A stretch of 64,000 bases of DNA from Prevotella sp. Lineage in GTDB: Bacteria > Bacteroidota > Bacteroidia > Bacteroidales > Muribaculaceae. Position 1 is the first letter of the stretch. Each line of letters begins with the position of its first letter. Positions 11,586-25,309 of the stretch are shown in pieces. The notes beneath the pieces were generated by a model, which was given only the letters and a program-made list of their open reading frames with translations, was not told the origin of the DNA and made no database searches. The position numbers and the translations under genes are program-made. The stretch is taken from the NCBI GenBank assembly GCA_023666665.1, contig JAMPBN010000001.1, positions 82,946 to 146,945 on the forward strand, given 5' to 3'.

Positions 11586-11607
11586 GCGGACGCATTTTTG
11601 CGCCCGC
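11586..11607 (+). repeat. REP-like hairpin in the leader between the RAYT gene and the secreted-protein gene
   Basis: The sequence starts GCGGACGCATTTTTGCGCCC and ends GC. GCGG pairs with CCGC, an A/C mismatch follows, then CGC pairs with GCG around an ATTTTT loop. Its outer part (GCGGAC...CCCGC) resembles the element at 45767-45790 read in reverse. It may act on the transcript leader instead of, or as well as, being a REP. Confidence 0.4.
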
Positions 11608-11629
11608 CGTTTCCGCATATCCCAACAAC

Positions 11630-11654
11630 ATCAATCAACCAATCAATCAACCAT
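11630..11654 (+). repeat. 12-bp direct repeat in the leader
   Basis: ATCAATCAACCA occurs twice in tandem just before an AT-rich run leading to the ATG at 11673. The period is 12 (internal 4-bp rhythm ATCA), so it differs from the 7-bp arrays elsewhere. Function unknown. Confidence 0.6.
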
Positions 11655-11672
11655 TTAATTAATTCACATAAC

Positions 11673-14600
11673 ATGAAAAAACATTTACTAACCGCTGCCC
11701 TGGGCCTGCTGGCAGTGCTTTGCGGGGCAGCTCAAACTCCACCGGAGTCAATAATAGTGGAGGTTAAAACATCAACCGGCTCTATTTCCGGTAATACTTG
11801 GACTTCAAGTACTCAAAATGTTCAGGTTTCTACGACCGGCTCGATGATTCAGAATGCAGACACCAATGCAGGAGAGAATTTGGGCTTTGGAACAACTCGC
11901 GGAGAACGCACAATCAAAATTTCCGCTGATGTGCCGGGATATTATGTATCGCAAATCAGCGCTCGGGCACGTGGTGTTTCCGGTGACAAAGTTCGCATTT
12001 CCGTAGATGGCTCTAAGCGACTGGCAACATCTGCAAATGCGCAATTATTCAATTTGTTAGTGGCAGATAATTATATCACTCCGGAACTGACCATACGTGG
12101 CGATGAAAACAATTACCTTTCCAACAACAAAAAAGCTATTTTTGAAGATTTCACAATTGTTTTGTCTCCCATCGTAACGTCAGAAACCAGCTGTTTCCTT
12201 TCGTGGAGTTCAGAACTTACGCCGGCAACTGAATTAGTTGATGGCGGCAAATATCTTCTTTACGACGCATCAAAAATTTACGGCTCCGACGAACAAACAG
12301 GCCGTGGTGGTTTCAACTATGTAAATGTTGATAATAACGAAATTTATTTACAACGTGAGCGAACTACCACAAATGCCAGCGGAAAAGTTGATGCCTCAAA
12401 ATATGTATTTATCGCTCATAAATCTGGCGATAATTGGATGTTTGAACATTTGGGAACGCATAAATTTCTGCCTGGTGTTGGCTCTCGAATGGAACCTGTG
12501 GTTCTAAGTGATTATGCCGGAGAGTTTACCTTGACCTCAGGCGAAGATTCCGCTGCATTTCTTGTTAAGAGCACTTCATCAACAGAATATCTTGACGGAA
12601 ATGGTAATACTACAGTAACATGGTCTACTACTGATACCTCGGATTTGCACTGGTTCCGCTTCTTTTCAGTTAACGAAAGCAATATTGTAGAAGAAGATTC
12701 ATATAAACAATATCACGTTGTTGTAAATTCAAGCTATGAAGATAATACATGTTCAATAAAATTTTGGCTTAAAAAAAATGTAGATTTAGCATATGTTACC
12801 GCATTTACAACTTGTACAAATCCCGATTATATAGTCAGGGAGGGGAATACCGAATTCAATATCACATGGAATTATCCTCTTGAACTCAATCACGTTTACC
12901 GCGTAAATCTCAAACCAACAGCTTCTAACCGTTATACTCTCAAATTTGATGGCACAAATGCTCTTAATAGCTATACTGTAGATGATACATCTTTCTTGGG
13001 AGAAAAATATTTATGGTACTTCAAACATAACGGATTCAACAAAACCGGAGTTCCTTTAGTATCTCTCTATACTTTAGTAGGTAATGAGGAAAAAGGCGCA
13101 ATATTTGGAACCGGCGGCAATTCTATAGCAACCTTCGGAACCAATCCAACCGGACTGATGCCGATGCCTTCAACTTATGGAAGCAAACAAGAAGGAGACT
13201 TTTGCCTAAAACATCCCGATGCCAACGACTGGATAAATGAATTCGGCAATAAAGGCAAACTTTCGACTTGGTCAGATTCTGAAGCGCAAGGAAACGATGG
13301 ATCTGTTATAAGAATTTCTTCTTTAACCGACGATGACTATGCTGCATTGTCAGACACAGAAGAAAACAAAAATGCAGCCAAGGCTAATCCTACTCCTGAA
13401 AATATTAAAAGCTTATTCAGCACCAATGCCACTGTAACATTTAACTTCCCGGCACTCAATGGCAATGCGGTTAGTGCGACGGCAAGCGTTACAAAAGGTT
13501 CCACTTACGCTCAGGCTCTTACGTCTTTTGAAATCCCGGAGTTTACGGTATCTGATGCCGATAAAGACAAAATAATTGTCGGCTCCGCCTCCTTGCCTAT
13601 TACCGGTACTTGGGGATTCCCTGAAATTGAGTTTGGTCGCGTTTATCGTATGGCTCTTCGCAACAAAAGCCAACATAACTGTAATTACTTCTATGCAAAT
13701 CCCGCTACGAAAGTAATTTCAACTCGAGATGCAGTTGCTGCCGATGTTCTTTCGCCCGACCGTTTGTTCTATTTCACCGAAGCCGAGGGCTCAACCCCGG
13801 AAGTTCGCTTGGTTCATCTCCACTCGGTTGCTCTTGGCGACAACTATGGATTTACTACTGCTAAGCCGACAGACTCCAAAGGCGAACTCAGTGAAAATCA
13901 GATGACGTTTAAAGTTGTAAGCAACTCTCAAGGAAATGATTATTATGGTTTTTCATTGCAACACCCCGATGAGAGTGAAAAACTTGGCCATGTTAATGAT
14001 ATTGGCGGTACTTTAGGTTGCTATACTGAAAACGGTACCAGTCAAAACGATCGCGGTTCTTGTTTCCGACTCTATAGCCTTTCTGATAGCGAAATCGACG
14101 CTATTGAGGGTGCTTCCGATGAGGAAAAAGCTGCTGCCAAGGCTAACCAAAACGTTGAAAACGTGCTTGCCCTCTGCAAGTACACTATGGAGCCTGAAAG
14201 GGCAGCGATTTGGAACAGCACAGCCGATGCGCGCGCTCAGCTTTCAGGCGAAAACGTGATTAAACTTCCCGGCCGTCTTGCTATTGAGTTCTTTACTGAA
14301 CAGGAGACCAACTACGCCAACGCCACCGATCCCATCGAAAAGGCAATGATTCTCGGTAATCTCAAGGCTTATAATCTGATGGGTAAGTCGTTTGAGACTA
14401 CTGATGGCGCTGTTTTGACACTCCGCAGCAGCGATTTTGGCGGCAATCAGAATCGCGGTTATCTCACCAATAACGGGAGCGGCTATCTTATGACCACTGC
14501 TGCTATGGGTGTGACCAACAATGCTGCCGAGGTCACCAATGATAATTTCAAGTTCACTTTCGTTACCGTTGACGGCAAGAAGTACCTGTATAACCTCGGT

Positions 14601-15626
14601 GCTGATAAGTTCCTGAATGCGTTTGGCAAAAAAACTGACCAAACATGGCCTTCAACCAACGCTGCCGGCGATTATACCTGGCGTTTTGCTTTCATTCCCA
14701 CAGAGATTGAAGAACTGCTGCCTTTCAATGGTGATAACGCTTTCACCCTGCGTGCAGGTCTGACTCCTACCAACCATAGCTATTGGGCGGAAGATAACGA
14801 CACCCACGTTGGCGGCATGAGCCTTATCGACGCCGGTGTTCGCCCGGTAATCGTTTCAATGGGTCTTACCTCTCGCGCCGATGGCAACGGCCTGGTTGCC
14901 GAATATGCTAACGCAAAGCTTTCTGACCAGGAGGTTGAGGCACTGCGAGGCCGCATCTCTGACGCAATTGCCGAGGTGACTGCCGAACTGCCTGAAATCA
15001 CTGAGGACAAGCACATTGTTAACCACTACATCCCCGGCACCGTCTCCAACATCAACACCGCCGAGACTCCCGACCATAAGCATTACTTTATGGAGAACGG
15101 CGAGATTCAAAACTTTGTTGAGAACACCGCTTACGTTCTGCTTCAGGATGCCGAAGAGGGCGAAACCGAGCCGAAAGCTTGGGCCGTGTGCAAGACCTAT
15201 GGCGACATCAAGCTGATTCCCTACGTTGAGCCTAACGACACTGCTTCATATGCCTGGAAGCCAACGTTGGTTGTTCCTGAAACCGTAGAGACCGAGGGTG
15301 AGGGCGAGGAAATCGCCGCCCGGTCGCTTGCTCCGGCATCATATAAGTTCAGCCACGTGGTTGACAACAACCCCAAGCTGCTGACGATTGACAACGTTAC
15401 CGACCACGAGATTGGCACCGACACTCTCGGCAAGGTAACCATTGCCGGCAAGAACTACACCGTAACCTCGACCAGCGCCCAGGCCAACACCACGACCACG
15501 GAAATCACAGAGATTACCGCCAATGGTGATGAGGCCACTGAAGTCTACGATATGTTGGGGCGCCGCCTGGCCAAGCCGGTACGCGGCATCAACATCATCA
15601 ACGGCCGCAAAGTACTCCGCAAATAA
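11673..15626 (+). CDS. Large secreted repeat protein with T9SS-like C-terminal sorting domain
   Basis: I place the start at ATG 11673 (1317 aa), where a clear signal peptide begins (MKKHLLTAALGLLAVLCG); an in-frame upstream ATG at 11598 gives no signal. The C-terminus, EVYDMLGRRLAKPVRGINI followed by INGRKVLRK, matches the Por/type A sorting-domain style that sends proteins through type IX secretion. The middle holds at least two divergent copies of a roughly 200-residue unit. Each copy opens with VYR and ends in an Asp-rich helix such as LTDDDYAALSDTEENK or LSDSEIDAIEGASDEE. A shorter third copy ends KLSDQEVEALRGR. No catalytic motif is recognised. The first 2.3 kb are clearly more AT-rich than the last 1.4 kb. 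Confidence 0.82.
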   Translation: MKKHLLTAALGLLAVLCGAAQTPPESIIVEVKTSTGSISGNTWTSSTQNVQVSTTGSMIQNADTNAGENLGFGTTRGERTIKISADVPGYYVSQISARARGVSGDKVRISVDGSKRLATSANAQLFNLLVADNYITPELTIRGDENNYLSNNKKAIFEDFTIVLSPIVTSETSCFLSWSSELTPATELVDGGKYLLYDASKIYGSDEQTGRGGFNYVNVDNNEIYLQRERTTTNASGKVDASKYVFIAHKSGDNWMFEHLGTHKFLPGVGSRMEPVVLSDYAGEFTLTSGEDSAAFLVKSTSSTEYLDGNGNTTVTWSTTDTSDLHWFRFFSVNESNIVEEDSYKQYHVVVNSSYEDNTCSIKFWLKKNVDLAYVTAFTTCTNPDYIVREGNTEFNITWNYPLELNHVYRVNLKPTASNRYTLKFDGTNALNSYTVDDTSFLGEKYLWYFKHNGFNKTGVPLVSLYTLVGNEEKGAIFGTGGNSIATFGTNPTGLMPMPSTYGSKQEGDFCLKHPDANDWINEFGNKGKLSTWSDSEAQGNDGSVIRISSLTDDDYAALSDTEENKNAAKANPTPENIKSLFSTNATVTFNFPALNGNAVSATASVTKGSTYAQALTSFEIPEFTVSDADKDKIIVGSASLPITGTWGFPEIEFGRVYRMALRNKSQHNCNYFYANPATKVISTRDAVAADVLSPDRLFYFTEAEGSTPEVRLVHLHSVALGDNYGFTTAKPTDSKGELSENQMTFKVVSNSQGNDYYGFSLQHPDESEKLGHVNDIGGTLGCYTENGTSQNDRGSCFRLYSLSDSEIDAIEGASDEEKAAAKANQNVENVLALCKYTMEPERAAIWNSTADARAQLSGENVIKLPGRLAIEFFTEQETNYANATDPIEKAMILGNLKAYNLMGKSFETTDGAVLTLRSSDFGGNQNRGYLTNNGSGYLMTTAAMGVTNNAAEVTNDNFKFTFVTVDGKKYLYNLGADKFLNAFGKKTDQTWPSTNAAGDYTWRFAFIPTEIEELLPFNGDNAFTLRAGLTPTNHSYWAEDNDTHVGGMSLIDAGVRPVIVSMGLTSRADGNGLVAEYANAKLSDQEVEALRGRISDAIAEVTAELPEITEDKHIVNHYIPGTVSNINTAETPDHKHYFMENGEIQNFVENTAYVLLQDAEEGETEPKAWAVCKTYGDIKLIPYVEPNDTASYAWKPTLVVPETVETEGEGEEIAARSLAPASYKFSHVVDNNPKLLTIDNVTDHEIGTDTLGKVTIAGKNYTVTSTSAQANTTTTEITEITANGDEATEVYDMLGRRLAKPVRGINIINGRKVLRK

Positions 15627-15695: not shown

Positions 15696-17120
15696 TCAGT
15701 CGGCCAGGTCTACTGCATAGTAGGTTTTGCGGCCGGTGGGGTAGAGGCCGGTGATGAAGAGCACTTTGTCGTCGGAGGAAGAGTTGCGTACAGCGTCGTA
15801 GAGCTTTTCGAGGTCTTCAACCGTGCGGATTCGCTGGCCGTTCACGTCAATGATGATGAAGCCCTTGCGGATGCCCGCATCGCGGAATTTGCCGTCGGTC
15901 AGTCCGGTAACCTGCAGTCCGGCGGTGAGGCCGAGGCGGCGCAGCTCCTGAGAGTCGAGGGCCTTGAGGGCGCAGCCGAGTTCGGCGAAGTCGCCGGGTT
16001 GCTGCAGCGTAGTGGTGCCGTTGTTGTTGCGCAGTTTGGCGGTGGCGTGATGCTTCTTGCCCGAGCGCAGATAGGCAATTTCAATGTCGTCGCCGGGACG
16101 CTTGCGGGCAATTTGCTCCTGGAAGGCTGCACCCGAATGGGTGGGCTTGCCGTCAACCTCAATAATGATGTCGTCTTTCTGCAGTCCGGCCTCGAATGCG
16201 GCAGAGCGCTCGAGTACTTCGGCCACGTAGATGCCGTCGTTGGTCTCGGTAATTCCCTTTTCCTTAGCGAGTTCGGGGGTTAGTTCCATAAATGAGATGC
16301 CCAATACGCCGCGCTGCACTGTGCCATAGTCTTTCAGGTCGGCAACAATTTTAGTCACGATGCTGGCCGGAATGGCAAACGAGTAGCCGGCATAGTTGCC
16401 CGTCTGAGAATAGATTGCGGCATTGATGCCCACGAGTTCGCCCTTTGTATTGACCAGGGCACCGCCCGAGTTGCCGGCATTTACGGCAGCATCGGTCTGG
16501 ATATATGACTCAATCGACATTTTTGCCTTTGAGCCGCCGCTGATGCCACGAGCCTTGGCAGAAACAATGCCGGCGGTAACGGTAGAGGTAAGGCCAAAGG
16601 GATTGCCCACGGCCAGTACCCATTCGCCAACGCGGAGGTCGTCGCTGTTGCCCATCGGGATGACCGGGAGGCCGGTAGCATCAATCTTAAGCAGGGCAAG
16701 GTCGGTAGCCTCGTCGGAGCCGATAACGGTGGCATCGTAGATGGAGTTGTCGTTGAGAGTCACCTGCAGGCGTTCTGCACCCTGGATAACGTGGTGGTTG
16801 GTGGCGATGTAGCCGTCGGAGCTGAGAATCACGCCCGAGCCGAGGCCGAGCTGCTGCTCCTTGGGCGACTGCTGCTGGCGGGGCTGCTGACGCTGCTGCG
16901 GAATGCCGAAAAAGTATTCCAGCAGAGGGTCGTAGCCCTGGCTATATTGCTGCTGACGCTGCTGCGGGGTGGCATAGCTCTTGATTGACACCACGCCATT
17001 GATGGTGTTTTCGGCAGCCTGTGTAAAGTCAGGATAAGGAGAATCGGAAGAATGTTGGGCCGTGCAACTCAAAGTTGCAGCAGCCAGAATGATTGATAAT
17101 GTAAGTGCTTTCAGTTTCAT
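15696..17120 (-). CDS. htrA: HtrA/DegP-type periplasmic serine protease
   Basis: The 474-residue protein has a signal peptide or lipobox-like N-terminus (LSCTAQ). Trypsin-like motifs follow: GSGVILSSDGYIATNHHVI with the catalytic His, EATDLALLKI with the Asp, and AAVNAGNSGGALVN with the Ser. Two PDZ domains come next (about 270-360 and 375-470). A Gln/Arg-rich low-complexity stretch near residues 50-85 precedes the protease domain, as in DegP LA-loop-like regions. It would refold or degrade damaged envelope proteins. It has its own promoter at 17171-17202. Confidence 0.93.
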   Translation of the reverse strand: MKLKALTLSIILAAATLSCTAQHSSDSPYPDFTQAAENTINGVVSIKSYATPQQRQQQYSQGYDPLLEYFFGIPQQRQQPRQQQSPKEQQLGLGSGVILSSDGYIATNHHVIQGAERLQVTLNDNSIYDATVIGSDEATDLALLKIDATGLPVIPMGNSDDLRVGEWVLAVGNPFGLTSTVTAGIVSAKARGISGGSKAKMSIESYIQTDAAVNAGNSGGALVNTKGELVGINAAIYSQTGNYAGYSFAIPASIVTKIVADLKDYGTVQRGVLGISFMELTPELAKEKGITETNDGIYVAEVLERSAAFEAGLQKDDIIIEVDGKPTHSGAAFQEQIARKRPGDDIEIAYLRSGKKHHATAKLRNNNGTTTLQQPGDFAELGCALKALDSQELRRLGLTAGLQVTGLTDGKFRDAGIRKGFIIIDVNGQRIRTVEDLEKLYDAVRNSSSDDKVLFITGLYPTGRKTYYAVDLAD

Positions 17121-17249: not shown

Positions 17250-17280
17250 TTTGGCGTGGGTGAATTTTTTTGTACCTTTG
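17250..17280 (+). promoter_or_regulatory. Promoter of the GH31-LRR-GH110 operon
   Basis: TTTG at 17250-17253, a 19-base spacer and TACCTTTG at 17273-17280. The GH31 ATG follows 32 bases later. No regulator gene of the SusR or hybrid two-component type is adjacent. Confidence 0.75.
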
Positions 17281-17311: not shown

Positions 17312-20300
17312 ATGAGAAACTTCTATTCCGTTCTGGCCGCCGTAGCCGCTACCCTCACGTCGGTTAGCGTCCAGGCCGAAACCACCGCCAAAGCCCTGAA
17401 TCCCACCACTGTAGAGGTGGCTCTCGACGGCGATTCCTCGCCGCTGGTCATTGACTTCTACAGCCCGAATATCTTCCGAGTGTTCCAAGACCCGCAAGGG
17501 GGCATTGTCCGCGACCCGCAGGCCACCCCTCCGGCCCTAATCCTCGTTGACTCCCCTCGCGTTTGCCCCGGCCAAGTCACCGTGAATAAAGAGGGTGGCA
17601 ACATCACCATCAGCTCCGCCCGCATCAAGCTCACATTCCCTGCCGACGGCAAGACGTTCAGCGTCACCGACCTGCAGACCGGCAAAACAGTGGTGAAATC
17701 GCTGAAACCCATTGAATACACCGCCAAAAACACCACCCTGGCCCTCAGCGAGGAGCCGGACGAATACTTCTATGGCGGCGGTGTGCAAAACGGCCGATTC
17801 TCCCACAAGGGGAAGCAGATTGACATTGTCAACACCAACTCGTGGGTTGACGGCGGAGTTGCCTCCCCCACCCCATTCTACTGGAGCACCGACGGTTACG
17901 GCGTGATGTGGAACACTTTCGCCCCCGGCGCATACGACTTCGGGGCAAAAGAAAAAGGAGAAGTTACTCTGACCCACGAGTCGCCCTATCTCGACATCTT
18001 CGTGATGGTCAACGACCAACCCACCGCGCTGCTCAACGACTTCTATCAGCTCACGGGCAACCCTGTTTTGATGCCAAAGTTCGGCTTCTACGAGGGTCAC
18101 CTCAACGCTTACAACCGCGACTACTGGCAGGAAGACCCCAACGGCATACTCTTTGAAGACGGCAAAACCTACAAAGAAAGCCAAAAAGACAACGGCGGCA
18201 TCAAAGAGAGCCTCAACGGCGAACAGCCCGGCAACTACCAGTTCAGCGCCCGCGCAGTGATTGACCGCTACAACGCCCACGATATGCCATTGGGCTGGGT
18301 GCTTCCCAACGACGGCTACGGTGCCGGTTATGGTCAGACCTCAAGCCTCGACGGAAATATCCAAAACCTCAAGAAATTTGGCGACTACGCCCGCAAGCGC
18401 GGAGTGGAAATCGGCCTGTGGACGCAAAGTTCCCTCCACCCCAAGGAGGGGATTGAACCGCTGCTGCAGCGCGACATTGTCAAGGAGGTGCGCGATGCCG
18501 GAGTGCGCGTGCTCAAAACCGACGTGGCTTGGGTTGGCTCAGGCTACTCGTTCGGCCTCAACGGCGTGGCCGACGTTGCCGAGATTATGCCTTATTACGG
18601 CAACGATGCACGCCCGTTTATCATCTCGCTCGACGGCTGGGCCGGCACGCAGCGCTACGCAGGAATCTGGACCGGCGACCAAACCGGCGGACAATGGGAA
18701 TACATCCGCTTCCACATCCCCACCTACATCGGCTCCGGACTCTCCGGCCAGCCTAACATCAGCTCGGATATGGACGGCATTTTCGGCGGCAAAAACCCGG
18801 TGATGAACACCCGCGACTACCAGTGGAAAACCTGGACCCCCATGCAGCTCAATATGGACGGCTGGGGCGCCAACCCGAAGTATCCCCACATTTTCGGCGG
18901 CGAATATGAAAAGATTGTACGCGGCTATCAGAAGCTCAAGAGCGAACTTCTCCCCTATGCTTACACGTATGCCCGCGAGGCCGTTGACGGCAAACCGCTG
19001 GTGCGCGCAATGTTCCTTGACTATCCCAACGACTACACCCACGGCGTTGCCACCAAATATCAGTTCCTCTACGGCCCCGACTTCCTCGTGGCACCGATTT
19101 ATCGGGAAACGCGCCTGCAGGCCGACGGCACCGACGTGCGCAACAATATCTACCTCCCCGCCGGCACCTGGTATGACTACTTCACCGGCAAGGCATATGA
19201 GAGCGATGGCACCGTGGTGCTCAACAACTTCGACACCCCGCTGTGGAAGCTCCCCGTCTTTGTCAAGGCCGGAGCAATCATCCCGATGGTGAACCCCAAC
19301 AACAACCCCTCGCAGATTGACCACTCGCTGCGCATCTACGAAATCTGGCCAATGCAAGGCAAATCGGAAATGACCGAATACGACGACGACGGCACCACCC
19401 AAGCCTGGCAGCACGGCCAATTTGCCACCACAAAAATCGGCGCTGACCTCAACGCCAAGGGAGTACTGACAGTCACCGTTAACCCCACCGCCGGCAATTT
19501 TGACCGCATGGCCATATATCAGGCAACGGAGCTGCGCATCCCCGCAACCGCAGCGCCCAAGCAGGTCACCGTCAAGGTCAATGGCAAGAAAGTCGCTGCC
19601 GACTGGAAGCTCGAAGATGCCCATAACCGCCTCACCGCCGGCGGAGTTGACAGCGCCGGCTCCCTGCCGATGCTGGTAATCACCACCCCCTCGATCAACC
19701 GCACAAACTCCACCCTGAGCGTTGAAATCAAGGGCTACGATTTCAACCCCGCTGCCGCCGAACCGGCAATGACAGCGCTGACCGCGCCGTCGACCCCCAT
19801 GCTTGCCATCAAAGACGGCGACGTCAAGCCCTACGACCTGACCGTGCGCTGGGAGCCGCTGGCAGATGCCTCGCAGGTGCAGATTCTCCACGACGGTATG
19901 CTCTACACCAACCTCGGCACCGCCGAGGGCGAGACCTACGCCACCTTTGAAGACCTCACCCCCGAAACCAAATACGACTTCAAGATTCGCGCCGTTAATC
20001 CCGCCGGAGAATCGGAATGGGCCGACCTGGCACTCGTAACTGCCGCCAACCCGCTGGAATTTGCAATCTCCGGCATCAAGGCCACGGCAACGATTCCCGA
20101 CCAGCCCGGTATGGGCCTGCGCCGCGCATTCGACCTCAAAGACGGCAACGACATCTGGCACAGCATCTACTCAGGCGCGGATATGCCGTTTGACCTGACC
20201 ATTGACCTCGGTTCGTTCAACACCCTTGACCGCCTCGAATACCTGCCCCGCCTCGATGCCGGCAACGGCACCATTCTCGGCGGTACATGGCAAGTCAGCG

Positions 20301-21043
20301 AAAACGGCACCGACTGGACCGAACCGCAGCCGTTTGAATGGCAGCGAAATGCCGACACCAAGGTCATCAAGTTCTCTGAAACCCTGCCCATGCGCTACAT
20401 CCGCCTGCACGTTGACAACACAGTGGGACGCTTTGCATCCGCACGCGAAATCTTCGTATTCAAAGCTCCCGGCACCCCCTCATATCTGCCCGGCGACATC
20501 AACAAAGACGGCCTCATCGACTCCAACGACCTCACTTCATATACCAACTATATGGGTCTGCGTCGCGGCGACGGCGACTTTGACTACGTCAGTATGGGCG
20601 ACGTGAACCGCAATGGCCTGATTGATGCCTGCGACGTATCTTACGTTGCCACCCGCCTTGACGGAGGCATTGAAAACCCCGCAGCAGGCATTGACGGCGA
20701 ACTCGCCATCACCACCGCCAAAAACGGCGATGAAATCACCGTTACCCTCTCGGGCAAGAACCTCAGCAACGTCAACGCCCTGAGCGCCGCCATTCCCTAC
20801 GACTCCAACTCGCTGGAATACGTTGGCATCGAGCCGGTTGCCACCTCATCAATGCAGAATCTTACCTACGACCGTCTGCACACCTCCGGCGACAAGGTGC
20901 TCTACCCCACATTCGTTAACCTTGGCCATAAGCCCACGCTCAACGGCGACCAGACCATTGCAGTCATACGCTTTAAGGCGCGCAAAAAAGCCGCCGTCAG
21001 CCTCACGCTGACGCATCCCATACTCGTTGCCCCCGCACTATGA
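17312..21043 (+). CDS. Secreted GH31 glycosidase with Fn3, F5/8C, dockerin-like and cohesin-like modules
   Basis: The 1243-residue protein has a signal peptide. The GH31 (alpha/beta)8 core has the nucleophile region VLKTDVAWVG (Asp near 404) and the acid/base region GIWTGDQTGG (Asp near 456). A GH31-type C-terminal beta-sandwich follows, then an Fn3 domain (about 820-910), an F5/8 type C (CBM32-like) domain (about 915-1050) and paired EF-like calcium loops GDINKDGLIDSNDL and GDVNRNGLIDACDV, which are dockerin-like. A last domain has the cohesin-like pattern NALSAAIPYDSNSLEYVGIE. GH31 enzymes act on alpha-linked sugars. The company of GH110 and the carbohydrate-binding domain suggest a mucin-type substrate, perhaps alpha-GalNAc; the subfamily is not proven. 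The start is ATG 17312, not the TTG before it. Confidence 0.9.
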   Translation: MRNFYSVLAAVAATLTSVSVQAETTAKALNPTTVEVALDGDSSPLVIDFYSPNIFRVFQDPQGGIVRDPQATPPALILVDSPRVCPGQVTVNKEGGNITISSARIKLTFPADGKTFSVTDLQTGKTVVKSLKPIEYTAKNTTLALSEEPDEYFYGGGVQNGRFSHKGKQIDIVNTNSWVDGGVASPTPFYWSTDGYGVMWNTFAPGAYDFGAKEKGEVTLTHESPYLDIFVMVNDQPTALLNDFYQLTGNPVLMPKFGFYEGHLNAYNRDYWQEDPNGILFEDGKTYKESQKDNGGIKESLNGEQPGNYQFSARAVIDRYNAHDMPLGWVLPNDGYGAGYGQTSSLDGNIQNLKKFGDYARKRGVEIGLWTQSSLHPKEGIEPLLQRDIVKEVRDAGVRVLKTDVAWVGSGYSFGLNGVADVAEIMPYYGNDARPFIISLDGWAGTQRYAGIWTGDQTGGQWEYIRFHIPTYIGSGLSGQPNISSDMDGIFGGKNPVMNTRDYQWKTWTPMQLNMDGWGANPKYPHIFGGEYEKIVRGYQKLKSELLPYAYTYAREAVDGKPLVRAMFLDYPNDYTHGVATKYQFLYGPDFLVAPIYRETRLQADGTDVRNNIYLPAGTWYDYFTGKAYESDGTVVLNNFDTPLWKLPVFVKAGAIIPMVNPNNNPSQIDHSLRIYEIWPMQGKSEMTEYDDDGTTQAWQHGQFATTKIGADLNAKGVLTVTVNPTAGNFDRMAIYQATELRIPATAAPKQVTVKVNGKKVAADWKLEDAHNRLTAGGVDSAGSLPMLVITTPSINRTNSTLSVEIKGYDFNPAAAEPAMTALTAPSTPMLAIKDGDVKPYDLTVRWEPLADASQVQILHDGMLYTNLGTAEGETYATFEDLTPETKYDFKIRAVNPAGESEWADLALVTAANPLEFAISGIKATATIPDQPGMGLRRAFDLKDGNDIWHSIYSGADMPFDLTIDLGSFNTLDRLEYLPRLDAGNGTILGGTWQVSENGTDWTEPQPFEWQRNADTKVIKFSETLPMRYIRLHVDNTVGRFASAREIFVFKAPGTPSYLPGDINKDGLIDSNDLTSYTNYMGLRRGDGDFDYVSMGDVNRNGLIDACDVSYVATRLDGGIENPAAGIDGELAITTAKNGDEITVTLSGKNLSNVNALSAAIPYDSNSLEYVGIEPVATSSMQNLTYDRLHTSGDKVLYPTFVNLGHKPTLNGDQTIAVIRFKARKKAAVSLTLTHPILVAPAL

Positions 21044-22056
21044 ATAAAATCATCCTGACTCTAATATCCGCTACCGCCATATTTGCCGCATCCGCTCGCG
21101 AATATGGCGGTACGCTTGGCAGCAACATTTCCTGGCAGCTGCGCGACAGCATCCTGACCGTAAGCGGCATCGGCGCGATGCCGTCATACACCACCACCGA
21201 TTGGACCCGCAACCCCTTTATGGAGGAGCGTATGGCCAAGGGGGTCAGAGACATTGTGATTGAAGAGGGAATCACCGAAATCGGAGCGTTCTCGTTCGGT
21301 TTCCGGGGCAACACTCAGGAGAATACCGAACTATACGCAAACCTCCGCTCAGTGACCCTGCCGCAATCGCTGCGCAAAATCGGCCACCACGCCTTTACGC
21401 GCATCCCGGTCAGGGTAATCAACATCCCCGACGGGGTTGAAGACATCTCGGCGGCAGCGTTTGCCAATACCGGGTTGCGCTACGTCAAGCTCCCTGCCTC
21501 GCTAATGCGCATCGGTCCGGAGGCTTTTCTGCAATGCCGCAACCTCATCGGCGTGGACCTCAACCACCTTGACCTGGCGCTGGGCACCGGAGTGTTTTTC
21601 AACTGCGAGCAGCTGCAGATTGTTTGCCACACCGAAAACATTCGCGACATAGCGCCCTCAACGTTCGATGCCACGCGCCTCACCGGCTCCACTGCTGAAT
21701 ATCTGCTGAAATACTTCAAGGAAGACGGCCTGTCGTACAGCCTGGCCAACGGTCGCAGCGCCGCCGACTTCTACAAGTCCGAGGCCGAGAACCTCACCAC
21801 CCTGTTTATTCTCGACGACTTCACCCTCTCGCCCTACGACCCGGAGAGCCGCACCTGCCGGCTGCAAAGCGTGTGCCACGGCGACTTTATTCTTTCACTC
21901 ACTCCCGACCAGGAGCAACTGCTTCGCACCTCGCTTTATAAAACCGTACGCGAATGTCAGCCGGCATTCGTTCCCCGCAAGGGTCGGCTCATCATGCAGT
22001 CGCTCACGCTGACTCTCCCCGACAAAACCAAGCTCATTGCCGCACCAATTCAATGA
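21040..22056 (+). CDS. Exported BspA-like leucine-rich repeat protein
   Basis: The 338-residue protein has a signal peptide (MNKIILTLISATAIFAASA). The early part has SWQLRDSILTVSGIGAMPSY, the usual lead-in of such proteins. LRR_5 units follow: LRSVTLPQSLRKIGHHAF, VRVINIPDGVEDISAAAF and LRYVKLPASLMRIGPEAF. The C-terminal 130 residues lack clear repeats. BspA-type LRR proteins usually bind ligands or host surfaces. It overlaps both the GH31 stop and the GH110 start as ATGA, so it belongs to the glycan operon and may be a non-catalytic helper. Confidence 0.85.
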   Translation: MNKIILTLISATAIFAASAREYGGTLGSNISWQLRDSILTVSGIGAMPSYTTTDWTRNPFMEERMAKGVRDIVIEEGITEIGAFSFGFRGNTQENTELYANLRSVTLPQSLRKIGHHAFTRIPVRVINIPDGVEDISAAAFANTGLRYVKLPASLMRIGPEAFLQCRNLIGVDLNHLDLALGTGVFFNCEQLQIVCHTENIRDIAPSTFDATRLTGSTAEYLLKYFKEDGLSYSLANGRSAADFYKSEAENLTTLFILDDFTLSPYDPESRTCRLQSVCHGDFILSLTPDQEQLLRTSLYKTVRECQPAFVPRKGRLIMQSLTLTLPDKTKLIAAPIQ

Positions 22057-23798
22057 TTATGACTAAAAAGCTGCTACTTTTGGCTCTTGCCGCCGCCTGT
22101 ACTCTTGGCTCCACGGCGCAAATACGCATTTCAATGTATAAAGACTATGGCATTCACCCCAACCGCAAGGAAAACGTGTCGCCCAAGGTGAGCCGCGCCA
22201 TGGCCGACATCAAGAGGCACCATGCCGGTCAGCCGGTGATAATCAGCTTCGACCCCGGGACATACAATTTTCACCCCAAAGGCTCGGAGCAGCGTGAACT
22301 CTACATCTCCAACCACGACCAGGTCAACCCGAAGAACGTCGGCATAGCCATTGAGCAATGGCACGACGTGACCATCGAGGCCCCCGGCGCGGAATTCGTT
22401 TTCCACGGCACTATGCTCCCGATTGCAGTTATCGGCTCGGCAAACTGCACCCTCAGCGGCTTCAGCATCGACTTTGCCAATCCGCCACACATCACTCAGG
22501 TTGAAATTCTCGACAACGAGGCCGACGGCATAATCTTCAACGCGCCCTCCGGAGCCGAAGCGCTCAGAGGCAAAAGCGCCGGCATTGCCTTCAATAAGCT
22601 GACGCACCACCTGATTTATCGTACCAGCGACCTGTGGTGTCCCATTGACAGCCTGATACCTCTTGCGGAGCGCAACACATTCCGCGCACCCAAGTGGAGA
22701 GACAAGCGCCTGACTCCCGGCACCATAGTGGCGCTGCGCAGCTGGGGCCGCCCCGCGCCGGGCATCTTCCTCAGCGAAGACTCCGCCACGATGATCAGCA
22801 ACGTTAAAGTTCACTACGCCGAGGGCATGGGGCTGCTGGCGCAGCTCTGCAACGGAGTTACGCTCGAGGGCTTCGGCGTTTGCCTGCGTGGCGATGACGA
22901 CCCGCGCTATTTCACCACACAGGCCGATGCCACCCACTTTTCAGGTTGCAAGGGCTTGATTAAATCCGTGGGCGGACTCTACGAGGGAATGATGGACGAT
23001 GCCATCAACGTGCACGGCACCTACCTCAAAGTCACCGGCCAACCCGACAGCCGAACACTCTCCGCCCGCTATATGCACAGCCAAAGCTACGGCTTCAAAT
23101 GGGGAGAACCGGGCGACACCATTCAGATTATCCTGGCGCAGACAATGGAGGCGCTGCCGCAAAAATTCGTGATTGACGCAATTTCCGAAGCCACTCCCGG
23201 AGTCAAAGACTTCACTATCCGCTTCACCGAAGAGTTGCCCCAAATCAGCGGCGACTGCGGCATTGAAAACCTGACGTGGAGCCCCGAAGTGTATTTTGCC
23301 GACAACACCATACGCAACAACCGCGCCCGAGGCTCGCTGTTCAGCACTCCGCGACGCACCATAGTGGAACGCAACCTCTTTGACCACACTTCAGGCACTG
23401 CCATTCTGCTCTGCGGCGACTGCATGGGGTGGTATGAAACCGGAGCGTGTCGCGACGTTACCATCCGCCACAACCGATTCATCAACGCCCTCACCAACCA
23501 ATTCCAGTTCACCGAGGCCGTGATTTCCATATATCCCGAGATTCATAACCTCGCCGACCAACGCGAATACTTTCACAGCGGCATACGCATCGAAAACAAT
23601 GAGTTTCACACTTTTGACTCCCCGCTGCTCTATGCCAAATCAACCGACGGAGTTATCTTTCAGGGCAACAAAGTGGTCTGCAACAGCGACTTTGCTCCCT
23701 ATCACCCTAACCACTACAACTTCCGCTTTGAGCGCTGCCGCAACGTTGAGATCTCCGGCAATCAACTCCCGCAGGAGCCCAGCATTAAATTCGACTGA
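22053..23798 (+). CDS. GH110-type alpha-1,3-galactosidase (parallel beta-helix)
   Basis: The 581-residue protein has a signal peptide ending GSTAQ. Right-handed beta-helix coils run throughout. Blocks that I recognise as GH110 are VTIEAPGAEFVFHGTMLPIA, FSIDFANPPHITQV, QADATHFSGCKGLI and GMMDDAINVHGTYLKV with its adjacent acidic pair. Known GH110 enzymes of gut Bacteroides remove terminal alpha-1,3-galactose from blood-group B or linear host glycans. The start is ATG 22053, which overlaps the LRR stop; a second Met two codons later is possible. It is the last gene of the operon, followed by a terminator. Confidence 0.85.
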   Translation: MIMTKKLLLLALAAACTLGSTAQIRISMYKDYGIHPNRKENVSPKVSRAMADIKRHHAGQPVIISFDPGTYNFHPKGSEQRELYISNHDQVNPKNVGIAIEQWHDVTIEAPGAEFVFHGTMLPIAVIGSANCTLSGFSIDFANPPHITQVEILDNEADGIIFNAPSGAEALRGKSAGIAFNKLTHHLIYRTSDLWCPIDSLIPLAERNTFRAPKWRDKRLTPGTIVALRSWGRPAPGIFLSEDSATMISNVKVHYAEGMGLLAQLCNGVTLEGFGVCLRGDDDPRYFTTQADATHFSGCKGLIKSVGGLYEGMMDDAINVHGTYLKVTGQPDSRTLSARYMHSQSYGFKWGEPGDTIQIILAQTMEALPQKFVIDAISEATPGVKDFTIRFTEELPQISGDCGIENLTWSPEVYFADNTIRNNRARGSLFSTPRRTIVERNLFDHTSGTAILLCGDCMGWYETGACRDVTIRHNRFINALTNQFQFTEAVISIYPEIHNLADQREYFHSGIRIENNEFHTFDSPLLYAKSTDGVIFQGNKVVCNSDFAPYHPNHYNFRFERCRNVEISGNQLPQEPSIKFD

Positions 23799-23947: not shown

Positions 23948-25309
23948 TCATAACAGCCCGGCCATATAAACCGGCAAATAAATGTATTCCCCTTCCTTTC
24001 GCAGATCTTTAGTATAAAGTATATAGCGGTTTTTAATTCGAGCAGAATACTTTTGGCAAAAAAGATCCATTGACTTATGGCTCTTATATCCCGAAGATTT
24101 TACCTCTATCGGCGAAATCTTATCTTTTTGATTAATCAGGAAATCAATCTCATAAGAGCGCGGGGATGCCGTATCGTCACTTTTGTCCCTGAATGTATAG
24201 TAATATAAATCGTGTCCCGCGGCTACGAGCAGCTGAGCAACGACATTTTCGAAAACGTAACCCAAATCAGTTGGCAATTTGTCAAACCATAGCTTGCGAT
24301 ATATTTCGTTTTCTGCATAATACTTATCTTTAAATGCCTGTGTAATAAACAAACCGGTATCGGACATAAATAACTTAAAGACATCGAAATCAGCTCGAAA
24401 AGCCAGCCCGACTCCTGGGTCATTGCTGTGGAATGCAAAGTTTACCGTTTTTGAATCCGCCAAGTCCGCGAATACCTCACCCATACGTGAGGGCTTTGCT
24501 CCATCAATAACGCTACCAACTTTATATCGAACAGTATTGCGAGAAAGTTCCGAAGGTATATTCATAAAGATTGTTGATGCACGCCCTCGTATATCTATTT
24601 TTCTAAAATCTGCTTCATAGAGTTCAATGATTGCACGCTTAACATTGTCAACACGAGTAAAGTCGTTGGTGGCAAGATATGCGTTAATCGCTTGCGGCAT
24701 ACCACCAACGAGCATATAAAGCCTGAAATCTTTCAAGATTACGCGGTTCATAGCATCTCCCATAGGAGAAAGGTTCTCAAAACTATGTCTGATCAAATCA
24801 TATGTTGGCTTCTTGTTGACTGCCCAAAGAAATTCTTCAAAATCCAGCGGATACATTTCAATGCGCATCTCTTCGCTCGGAATCAATATATCTTTGACGT
24901 TCTTCTTTATGGAAATCAACGAGCCGGTTTCAATATAATCGTAACGGCCGTCTTTCACGAGATATTTAATTGCTTGTCGGGCTTTAGGACAGAACTGTAC
25001 CTCATCAAAAATTATAACGGATTTGCGTATAGGCAATACCTTTGAGGTAAGAGTTTGCAATCCGAGAAAAAACAAATTTATGTCGGACAAAGAGTTAAAC
25101 AGTTCAACAACCCTTTCGTCGGCATTCGCAAAGTCTATTATGAGATAATCGTCATATTCATTGCGTGCAAATTCCTCAGAAATAGTAGATTTACCTATGC
25201 GCCTGGCGCCCTCAATCAATAAGGCATATTTCCCCTCTGATTCAGCTTTCCACCGAAGCATACGGTCGTAAATTTTGCGTTTGAATATTGTTTCGTTTAC
25301 CGGTGTCAT
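23948..25309 (-). CDS. AAA+ ATPase with DUF4143 C-terminal domain
   Basis: The 453-residue protein has Walker A IEGARRIGKST near residue 35, Walker B KSVIIFDEVQFCPKARQAI near 95-113, the sensor GSLISI, and the family's MYPLDFEEFLWA block. The C-terminal half is DUF4143-like, with a nuclease-type strand set EIDFLINQKDKISPIEVKSS (E-D/E-x-K pattern as in PD-(D/E)XK folds). These ATPases are very common in gut Bacteroidales, often in many copies, and their role is unknown. The gene is more AT-rich than its neighbours and stands alone with its own promoter, consistent with transfer. Two 33-bp repeats overlap that promoter. Confidence 0.88.
   Translation of the reverse strand: MTPVNETIFKRKIYDRMLRWKAESEGKYALLIEGARRIGKSTISEEFARNEYDDYLIIDFANADERVVELFNSLSDINLFFLGLQTLTSKVLPIRKSVIIFDEVQFCPKARQAIKYLVKDGRYDYIETGSLISIKKNVKDILIPSEEMRIEMYPLDFEEFLWAVNKKPTYDLIRHSFENLSPMGDAMNRVILKDFRLYMLVGGMPQAINAYLATNDFTRVDNVKRAIIELYEADFRKIDIRGRASTIFMNIPSELSRNTVRYKVGSVIDGAKPSRMGEVFADLADSKTVNFAFHSNDPGVGLAFRADFDVFKLFMSDTGLFITQAFKDKYYAENEIYRKLWFDKLPTDLGYVFENVVAQLLVAAGHDLYYYTFRDKSDDTASPRSYEIDFLINQKDKISPIEVKSSGYKSHKSMDLFCQKYSARIKNRYILYTKDLRKEGEYIYLPVYMAGLL

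Follow-up and report, generated by a model that had tools for sequence, protein, structure and literature searches.

All characterised members of GH31 subfamily 18 (GH31_18) act on alpha-GalNAc (PMC13096917, PMC11790493). In gut Gram-negative bacteria BT3169 of B. theta, a GH31_18 enzyme of B. caccae and Amuc_1008 of Akkermansia release the core GalNAc of mucin. BT3169, which frees core GalNAc from desialylated mucin and has no action on blood-group A (PMC11992087), and Amuc_1008 (PMC11790493) are both described as periplasmic enzymes. The Enterococcus faecalis GH31 alpha-GalNAcase, known from several solved structures (6m76, 7f7q, 7f7r), is an enzyme of a Gram-positive and according to its PDB name an LPXTG cell-wall protein. 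GH31 enzymes that carry both a dockerin and a cohesin have already been described in two species. The A. muciniphila enzyme has a single module of each type, and in C. perfringens, where NagJ, NagH, NanJ and GH31 are host-glycan hydrolases with non-cellulosomal cohesin-dockerin modules, AlphaFold3 pairs the GH31 cohesin with the dockerin of the same enzyme and with that of a GH2; in ELISA, however, this cohesin failed to bind any dockerin protein (PMC12997984). The same study called the co-presence of dockerins and cohesins in Bacteroidetes MAGs surprising. Among GH110 enzymes, PpaGal of Pedobacter panaciterrae belongs to GH110B and is active on the blood-group B antigen (PMC12002104).

The window analysed here, a 64,000-nucleotide stretch of Prevotella sp. 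DNA, holds a three-gene unit (17312-23798) that encodes a GH31 enzyme with both modules, a leucine-rich-repeat (LRR) protein and a GH110 enzyme (Table 1). The GH31s of A. muciniphila and C. perfringens share the two modules, and what is notable here is that they would form a single, self-sufficient pair. The reading we favour, with moderate confidence, is that the GH31 protein acts in the periplasm as a core alpha-GalNAcase and that its dockerin and cohesin fill each other, either in cis or in a dimer, so that it does not serve as a docking point for other enzymes. Inspection of the ORFs and their overlaps confirms the extent, start and end that a preliminary description of this DNA had given for the operon. 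The first gene starts at the ATG at 17312, the mechanical ORF call beginning 3 bases upstream at a TTG, and both junctions between the genes are overlaps of the ATGA type. The Bacteroidota promoter consensus used for the matching is general knowledge; nine matches were observed in the window versus 0.79 expected, which makes them about ten times commoner than in shuffled sequence. No such match lies on the plus strand inside the operon (17312-23798), and the flanking HtrA-like and AAA genes have one match of their own each. Since both bounding genes thus have their own promoter match, the operon looks self-contained with three genes.

Table 1. Features of the GH31-LRR-GH110 operon and its borders (positions in the window).
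Feature	Position	Strand	Remarks
HtrA-like gene	15696-17120	minus	Divergent; bounds the operon
Promoter match TTTG-N19-TACCTTTG	17250..17280	+	Bacteroidota-type; 31 bp 5' of GH31 start
GH31 enzyme	17312..21043	+	1243 aa; probable subfamily 18 alpha-N-acetylgalactosaminidase
Sec signal peptide MRNFYSVLAAVAATLTSVSVQA	17312..17377	+	GH31; without lipobox cysteine; read by eye
Codon of D404	18521..18523	+	GH31; predicted catalytic nucleophile, LKTDVAWVG
fn3 domain	19820..20023	+	GH31 residues 837-904; Pfam
F5/8 type C (CBM32-like) domain	20108..20452	+	GH31 residues 933-1047; Pfam, 46.6 bits
Type I dockerin	20489..20659	+	GH31 residues 1060-1116; Pfam Dockerin_1; two calcium loops (20495-20530, 20600-20635)
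Cohesin domain	20711..21001	+	GH31 residues 1134-1230; Pfam and fold comparison
LRR protein	21040..22056	+	Secreted, BspA-type, 338 aa; ATGA overlap with GH31 stop
GH110 alpha-1,3-galactosidase	22053..23798	+	Closest to GH110B PpaGal; ATGA overlap with LRR stop
QADATHF motif	from 22920	+	GH110 catalytic motif
MMDD motif	from 22989	+	GH110 catalytic motif
AAA gene	23948-25309	minus	Bounds the operon

The GH31 protein contains three GH31 domains and a DUF5110 domain above the curated Pfam cut-offs. Its best match among solved structures is the E. faecalis alpha-GalNAcase (6m76), which aligns over residues 47-905 with 827.5 bits, the next GH31 structure scoring 128.4 bits, and D404 falls on the aspartate that is changed to N in 7f7r and to A in 7f7q. 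The gap between 827.5 and 128 bits, together with the conserved nucleophile, makes it probable that the enzyme belongs with the subfamily 18 alpha-GalNAcases. The preliminary description had proposed a subfamily assignment, for instance against GalNAc-releasing members, and had thought of mucin-type glycans; the nearest solved relative lends this support, and by best match, as judged from the score gap, the enzyme lies closest to the GH31_18 alpha-GalNAcases. Plain alpha-glucosidase activity appears unlikely from the same comparison, because the characterised subfamily 18 members act on alpha-GalNAc. The likeness to the E. faecalis enzyme comprises the catalytic core with its nucleophile and the fn3 domain, where the alignment stops, whereas the F5/8C-dockerin-cohesin tail is unmatched. 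Unlike BT3169, the B. caccae enzyme and Amuc_1008, the window GH31 has the genes of an LRR protein and a GH110 as its operon partners. That the protein might be truncated was considered and rejected, its stop lying within 3-9 residues of where most relatives end, which shows it to be complete.

In the GH110 protein the beta-helix and the GLAA-B barrel II are found above the Pfam cut-offs and barrel I just under. Its best PDB match, over nearly the full length, is PpaGal (9i4f/9i4g; E 4.5e-191, 639 bits), and the motifs bearing the catalytic aspartates (ADATHF, MMDD) are intact. Judged by best match, the enzyme is closest to the GH110B alpha-1,3-galactosidases, and the three catalytic aspartates of the family, for which the source of comparison was PMC7939477, can all be recognised in its sequence. 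At the level of the family this agrees with the preliminary assignment to enzymes attacking alpha-1,3-galactose of host glycans, although the specificity of the window enzyme, unlike that of PpaGal, is a prediction. The LRR protein matches LRR_5 in Pfam with 72.3 bits, and its family would lead one to guess at a role in ligand or partner binding. The F5/8C domain sits on GH31 and not on GH110.

The N-termini of all three operon proteins look, by eye, like Sec signal peptides. In the GH110 signal a cysteine after AAA could fit a loose lipobox, with no acidic residues following it, and inspection of the three proteins by eye revealed neither a Bacteroidota surface-lipoprotein signal nor a tail resembling those of type IX secretion (T9SS). 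Together with the periplasmic homologues, the Sec-type signals point to a periplasmic location of the operon enzymes and do not support the surface complex that had been suggested for them. Both enzymes belong to families acting on host or mucin glycans. On mucin-type glycans GH110 would first trim terminal alpha-1,3-galactose, as found in blood-group B or linear alpha-Gal caps, and GH31 would then act on imported glycopeptides that have already lost their outer sugars, freeing the core alpha-GalNAc from their Ser/Thr residues. A neighbouring gene (11598-15626) encodes a secreted protein with no Pfam match, some 1.3 thousand residues long, which ends in YDMLGRRLAKPVRGINIINGRKVLRK; this ending is reminiscent of the C-terminal signals of type IX secretion, and a similar one occurs beside GH110 in two further loci (L112, L113).

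Both modules of the tail score above their Pfam cut-offs, Dockerin_1 with 30.9 bits (cut-off 22.9) and Cohesin with 34.5 bits (cut-off 24.1), and the dockerin has the two F-hand-type calcium loops of type I. In an AlphaFold2 model of the tail the cohesin half adopts a jelly-roll fold and can be superimposed onto 6kge (Z 10.8, rmsd 2.0 over 112 residues), 1ohz (Z 10.3) and the C. perfringens module 2jh2 (Z 9.8), the Foldseek and VIA-align comparison covering in effect the cohesin half of the model only. In a contig search the alignments of the best 80 GH31 relatives, which come from Bacteroides, Phocaeicola, Prevotella, Pedobacter, Elizabethkingia and others, extend into the tail without exception, in a sample picked by similarity to the full-length query and hence one in which tail-less relatives would be under-represented. 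Dockerin_1 is present in 56 of the 56 C-terminal tails scanned and Cohesin in 45, and the calcium-ligand positions 1, 5, 9 and 12 of the dockerin are conserved in 89-90 of 90 aligned sequences. The Pfam matches, the cohesin fold and the conserved ligands show that the two modules, which the preliminary description had placed on GH31, are genuine. In a Rikenellaceae relative (L064:11112-12431) the whole dockerin-cohesin unit is tandemly duplicated in nearly identical form, which is either a true duplication or an assembly artefact.

A different explanation would be that the cohesin and dockerin are non-binding relics which have been retained as spacer domains. This would account for the low Pfam score of the cohesin, for its absence at E 0.01 from the tails of 11 of the 56 relatives scanned, and for the weak matches of the tail profile to solved structures including cohesin-dockerin pairs, the best having an E of 0.005. 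Spacers of this kind are nevertheless improbable in view of calcium ligands that vary little or not at all among 90 sequences and of the cohesin block around NLTYDRLHTNG and YPTFVN, one of the most strongly conserved stretches of the tail.

Binding would imply a partner, and the whole genome (2.16 Mb, 99.97% complete) encodes one cohesin and one dockerin above cut-off, both in the same GH31 protein; used as a query against its own genome, the tail matches only itself. The search for other dockerin or cohesin proteins that the preliminary description proposed returned no second one above cut-off from the whole genome, by phmmer and HMM methods that can miss divergent partners, and the LRR protein and GH110 carry neither module. 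Two weak dockerin-like hits (E 0.02-0.03) were considered as extra dockerins and rejected, each being a SusC protein that has only one EF-like loop. The combination that defines a cellulosome or mucinolysome, a multi-cohesin scaffoldin with several dockerin enzymes, is not found in this genome. It has been suggested that the protein could dock to other proteins, and the modules might indeed serve to recruit further enzymes, or a scaffold at the surface, in the manner of a mucinolysome or of the C. perfringens hydrolase pairs, given that the C. perfringens hydrolases pair in trans and that a mucinolysome has been predicted in Limousia (PMC12997984). The counts in this nearly complete genome make such recruitment very improbable, and they also set it apart from C. 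perfringens, where several partner proteins occur per genome as opposed to one protein here. As the sole cohesin and the sole dockerin of the genome are on the same chain, the partner would be that chain or another copy of it. What weighs against this reading is that a divergent partner may exist below the Pfam cut-offs or come from another species.

The GH31 enzyme is present in 24 of 297 genomes of the family, in two genera, and exactly one dockerin (E 1e-4) was found in 21 of these 24, two in two and none in one. Another genus of the family (g18) presents a different picture, with at least 10 dockerin matches, scored up to a ceiling of 21, in each of the genomes listed, up to 318 first-look candidates and, in many, cohesins. 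One of its proteins (G192:C7:125482-127275, L134) has four cohesins and a C-terminal dockerin and another (G271:C1:272755-275412, L135) several cohesin-like units and a dockerin, both being scaffoldin-like, so that Bacteroidota may here possess a genuine system of the cellulosome type.

The second calcium loop and the NAL motif of the cohesin are 62-64 residues apart in 79 of 90 sequences, which range from Bacteroides to Pedobacter. The tail model has a pLDDT of 88.8 and a pTM of 0.81, with linker blocks above 90, and the model of the F5/8C-dockerin-cohesin arm has a pTM of 0.81 over 340 aa. The high pTM suggests a fixed placement of the dockerin relative to the cohesin in the model, although pTM alone would be compatible with packing through a face other than the usual binding face of the cohesin. 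The near-constant spacing and the ordered linker favour a contact within the chain. GH31 copies might instead be joined in trans, head to tail or as swapped dimers, into a homo-oligomer, in line with the preliminary idea that copies could chain together; one module of each type per genome, on the same protein, fits this homotypic contact equally well, and a head-to-tail or swapped dimer would leave the same conservation. The short, near-constant spacing and the confident single-chain model with its ordered linker do not support chaining, nor does the failure of the C. perfringens GH31 cohesin to bind any dockerin protein in ELISA (PMC12997984), and an oligomer of this kind is rather unlikely. 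In the favoured arrangement the dockerin and the cohesin that follows it would occupy each other within one chain, or else between two copies, and through their contact the F5/8C module would be held on a rigid arm dependent on calcium.

There may be an even chance that this holds across Bacteroidota, in that on mucin GalNAcases a dockerin and a cohesin of cellulosome type were joined in tandem and became a self-contained, calcium-locked intramolecular module with no partner protein. If so, it would explain two observations, namely that some Bacteroidota genomes contain dockerins together with cohesins although they lack cellulosomes, and that the C. perfringens GH31 cohesin showed no binding to any dockerin. 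The presence of the two modules in one Bacteroidota genome need not signal a multi-enzyme complex, and the counts offer an explanation of their co-presence for genomes like this one. A pair locked in cis would be a naturally occurring cohesin-dockerin unit on a single chain. It would be of use in structural studies and in correcting automated searches that list genomes of this type among the carriers of a cellulosome or mucinolysome.

A conserved GH31-LRR-GH110 operon was considered and rejected, as the LRR neighbour recurs in one congener only (L007 and L030, apparently of one species) and the GH110 neighbour in none of the loci fetched. In the other congeners the LRR relatives lie elsewhere, in three of them beside a helicase gene. 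GH110 adjoins GH31 in no other locus fetched, and in the other family genomes in which both enzymes were found and listed they are on different contigs. The linkage to LRR and GH110 is therefore lineage-specific and the operon a local assembly. At the level of genomes GH31 and GH110 co-occur, GH110 being found in 19 of the 24 genomes with GH31 versus 42 of the other 273 (Fisher p ~1e-10, a statistic that ignores relatedness).

The SusC/SusD pair expected of a polysaccharide utilisation locus is lacking among the flanking ORFs scanned, which are part of those in the window, and SusC genes are present elsewhere in the genome. The preliminary description had recorded this absence, correctly for the ORFs scanned, and taken it to indicate a complex of a different style. 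SusC and SusD are both found in the flanks of 2 of the 60 GH31 relatives with enough upstream sequence (by BLAST, which would miss a distant SusD), so that absence is usual in this enzyme family and no sign of another style of system. In one locus (L031:474-11684) a SusC/SusD pair and another secreted protein are encoded immediately upstream of the GH31 of a close relative, an arrangement which shows that GH31 can belong to a polysaccharide utilisation locus.
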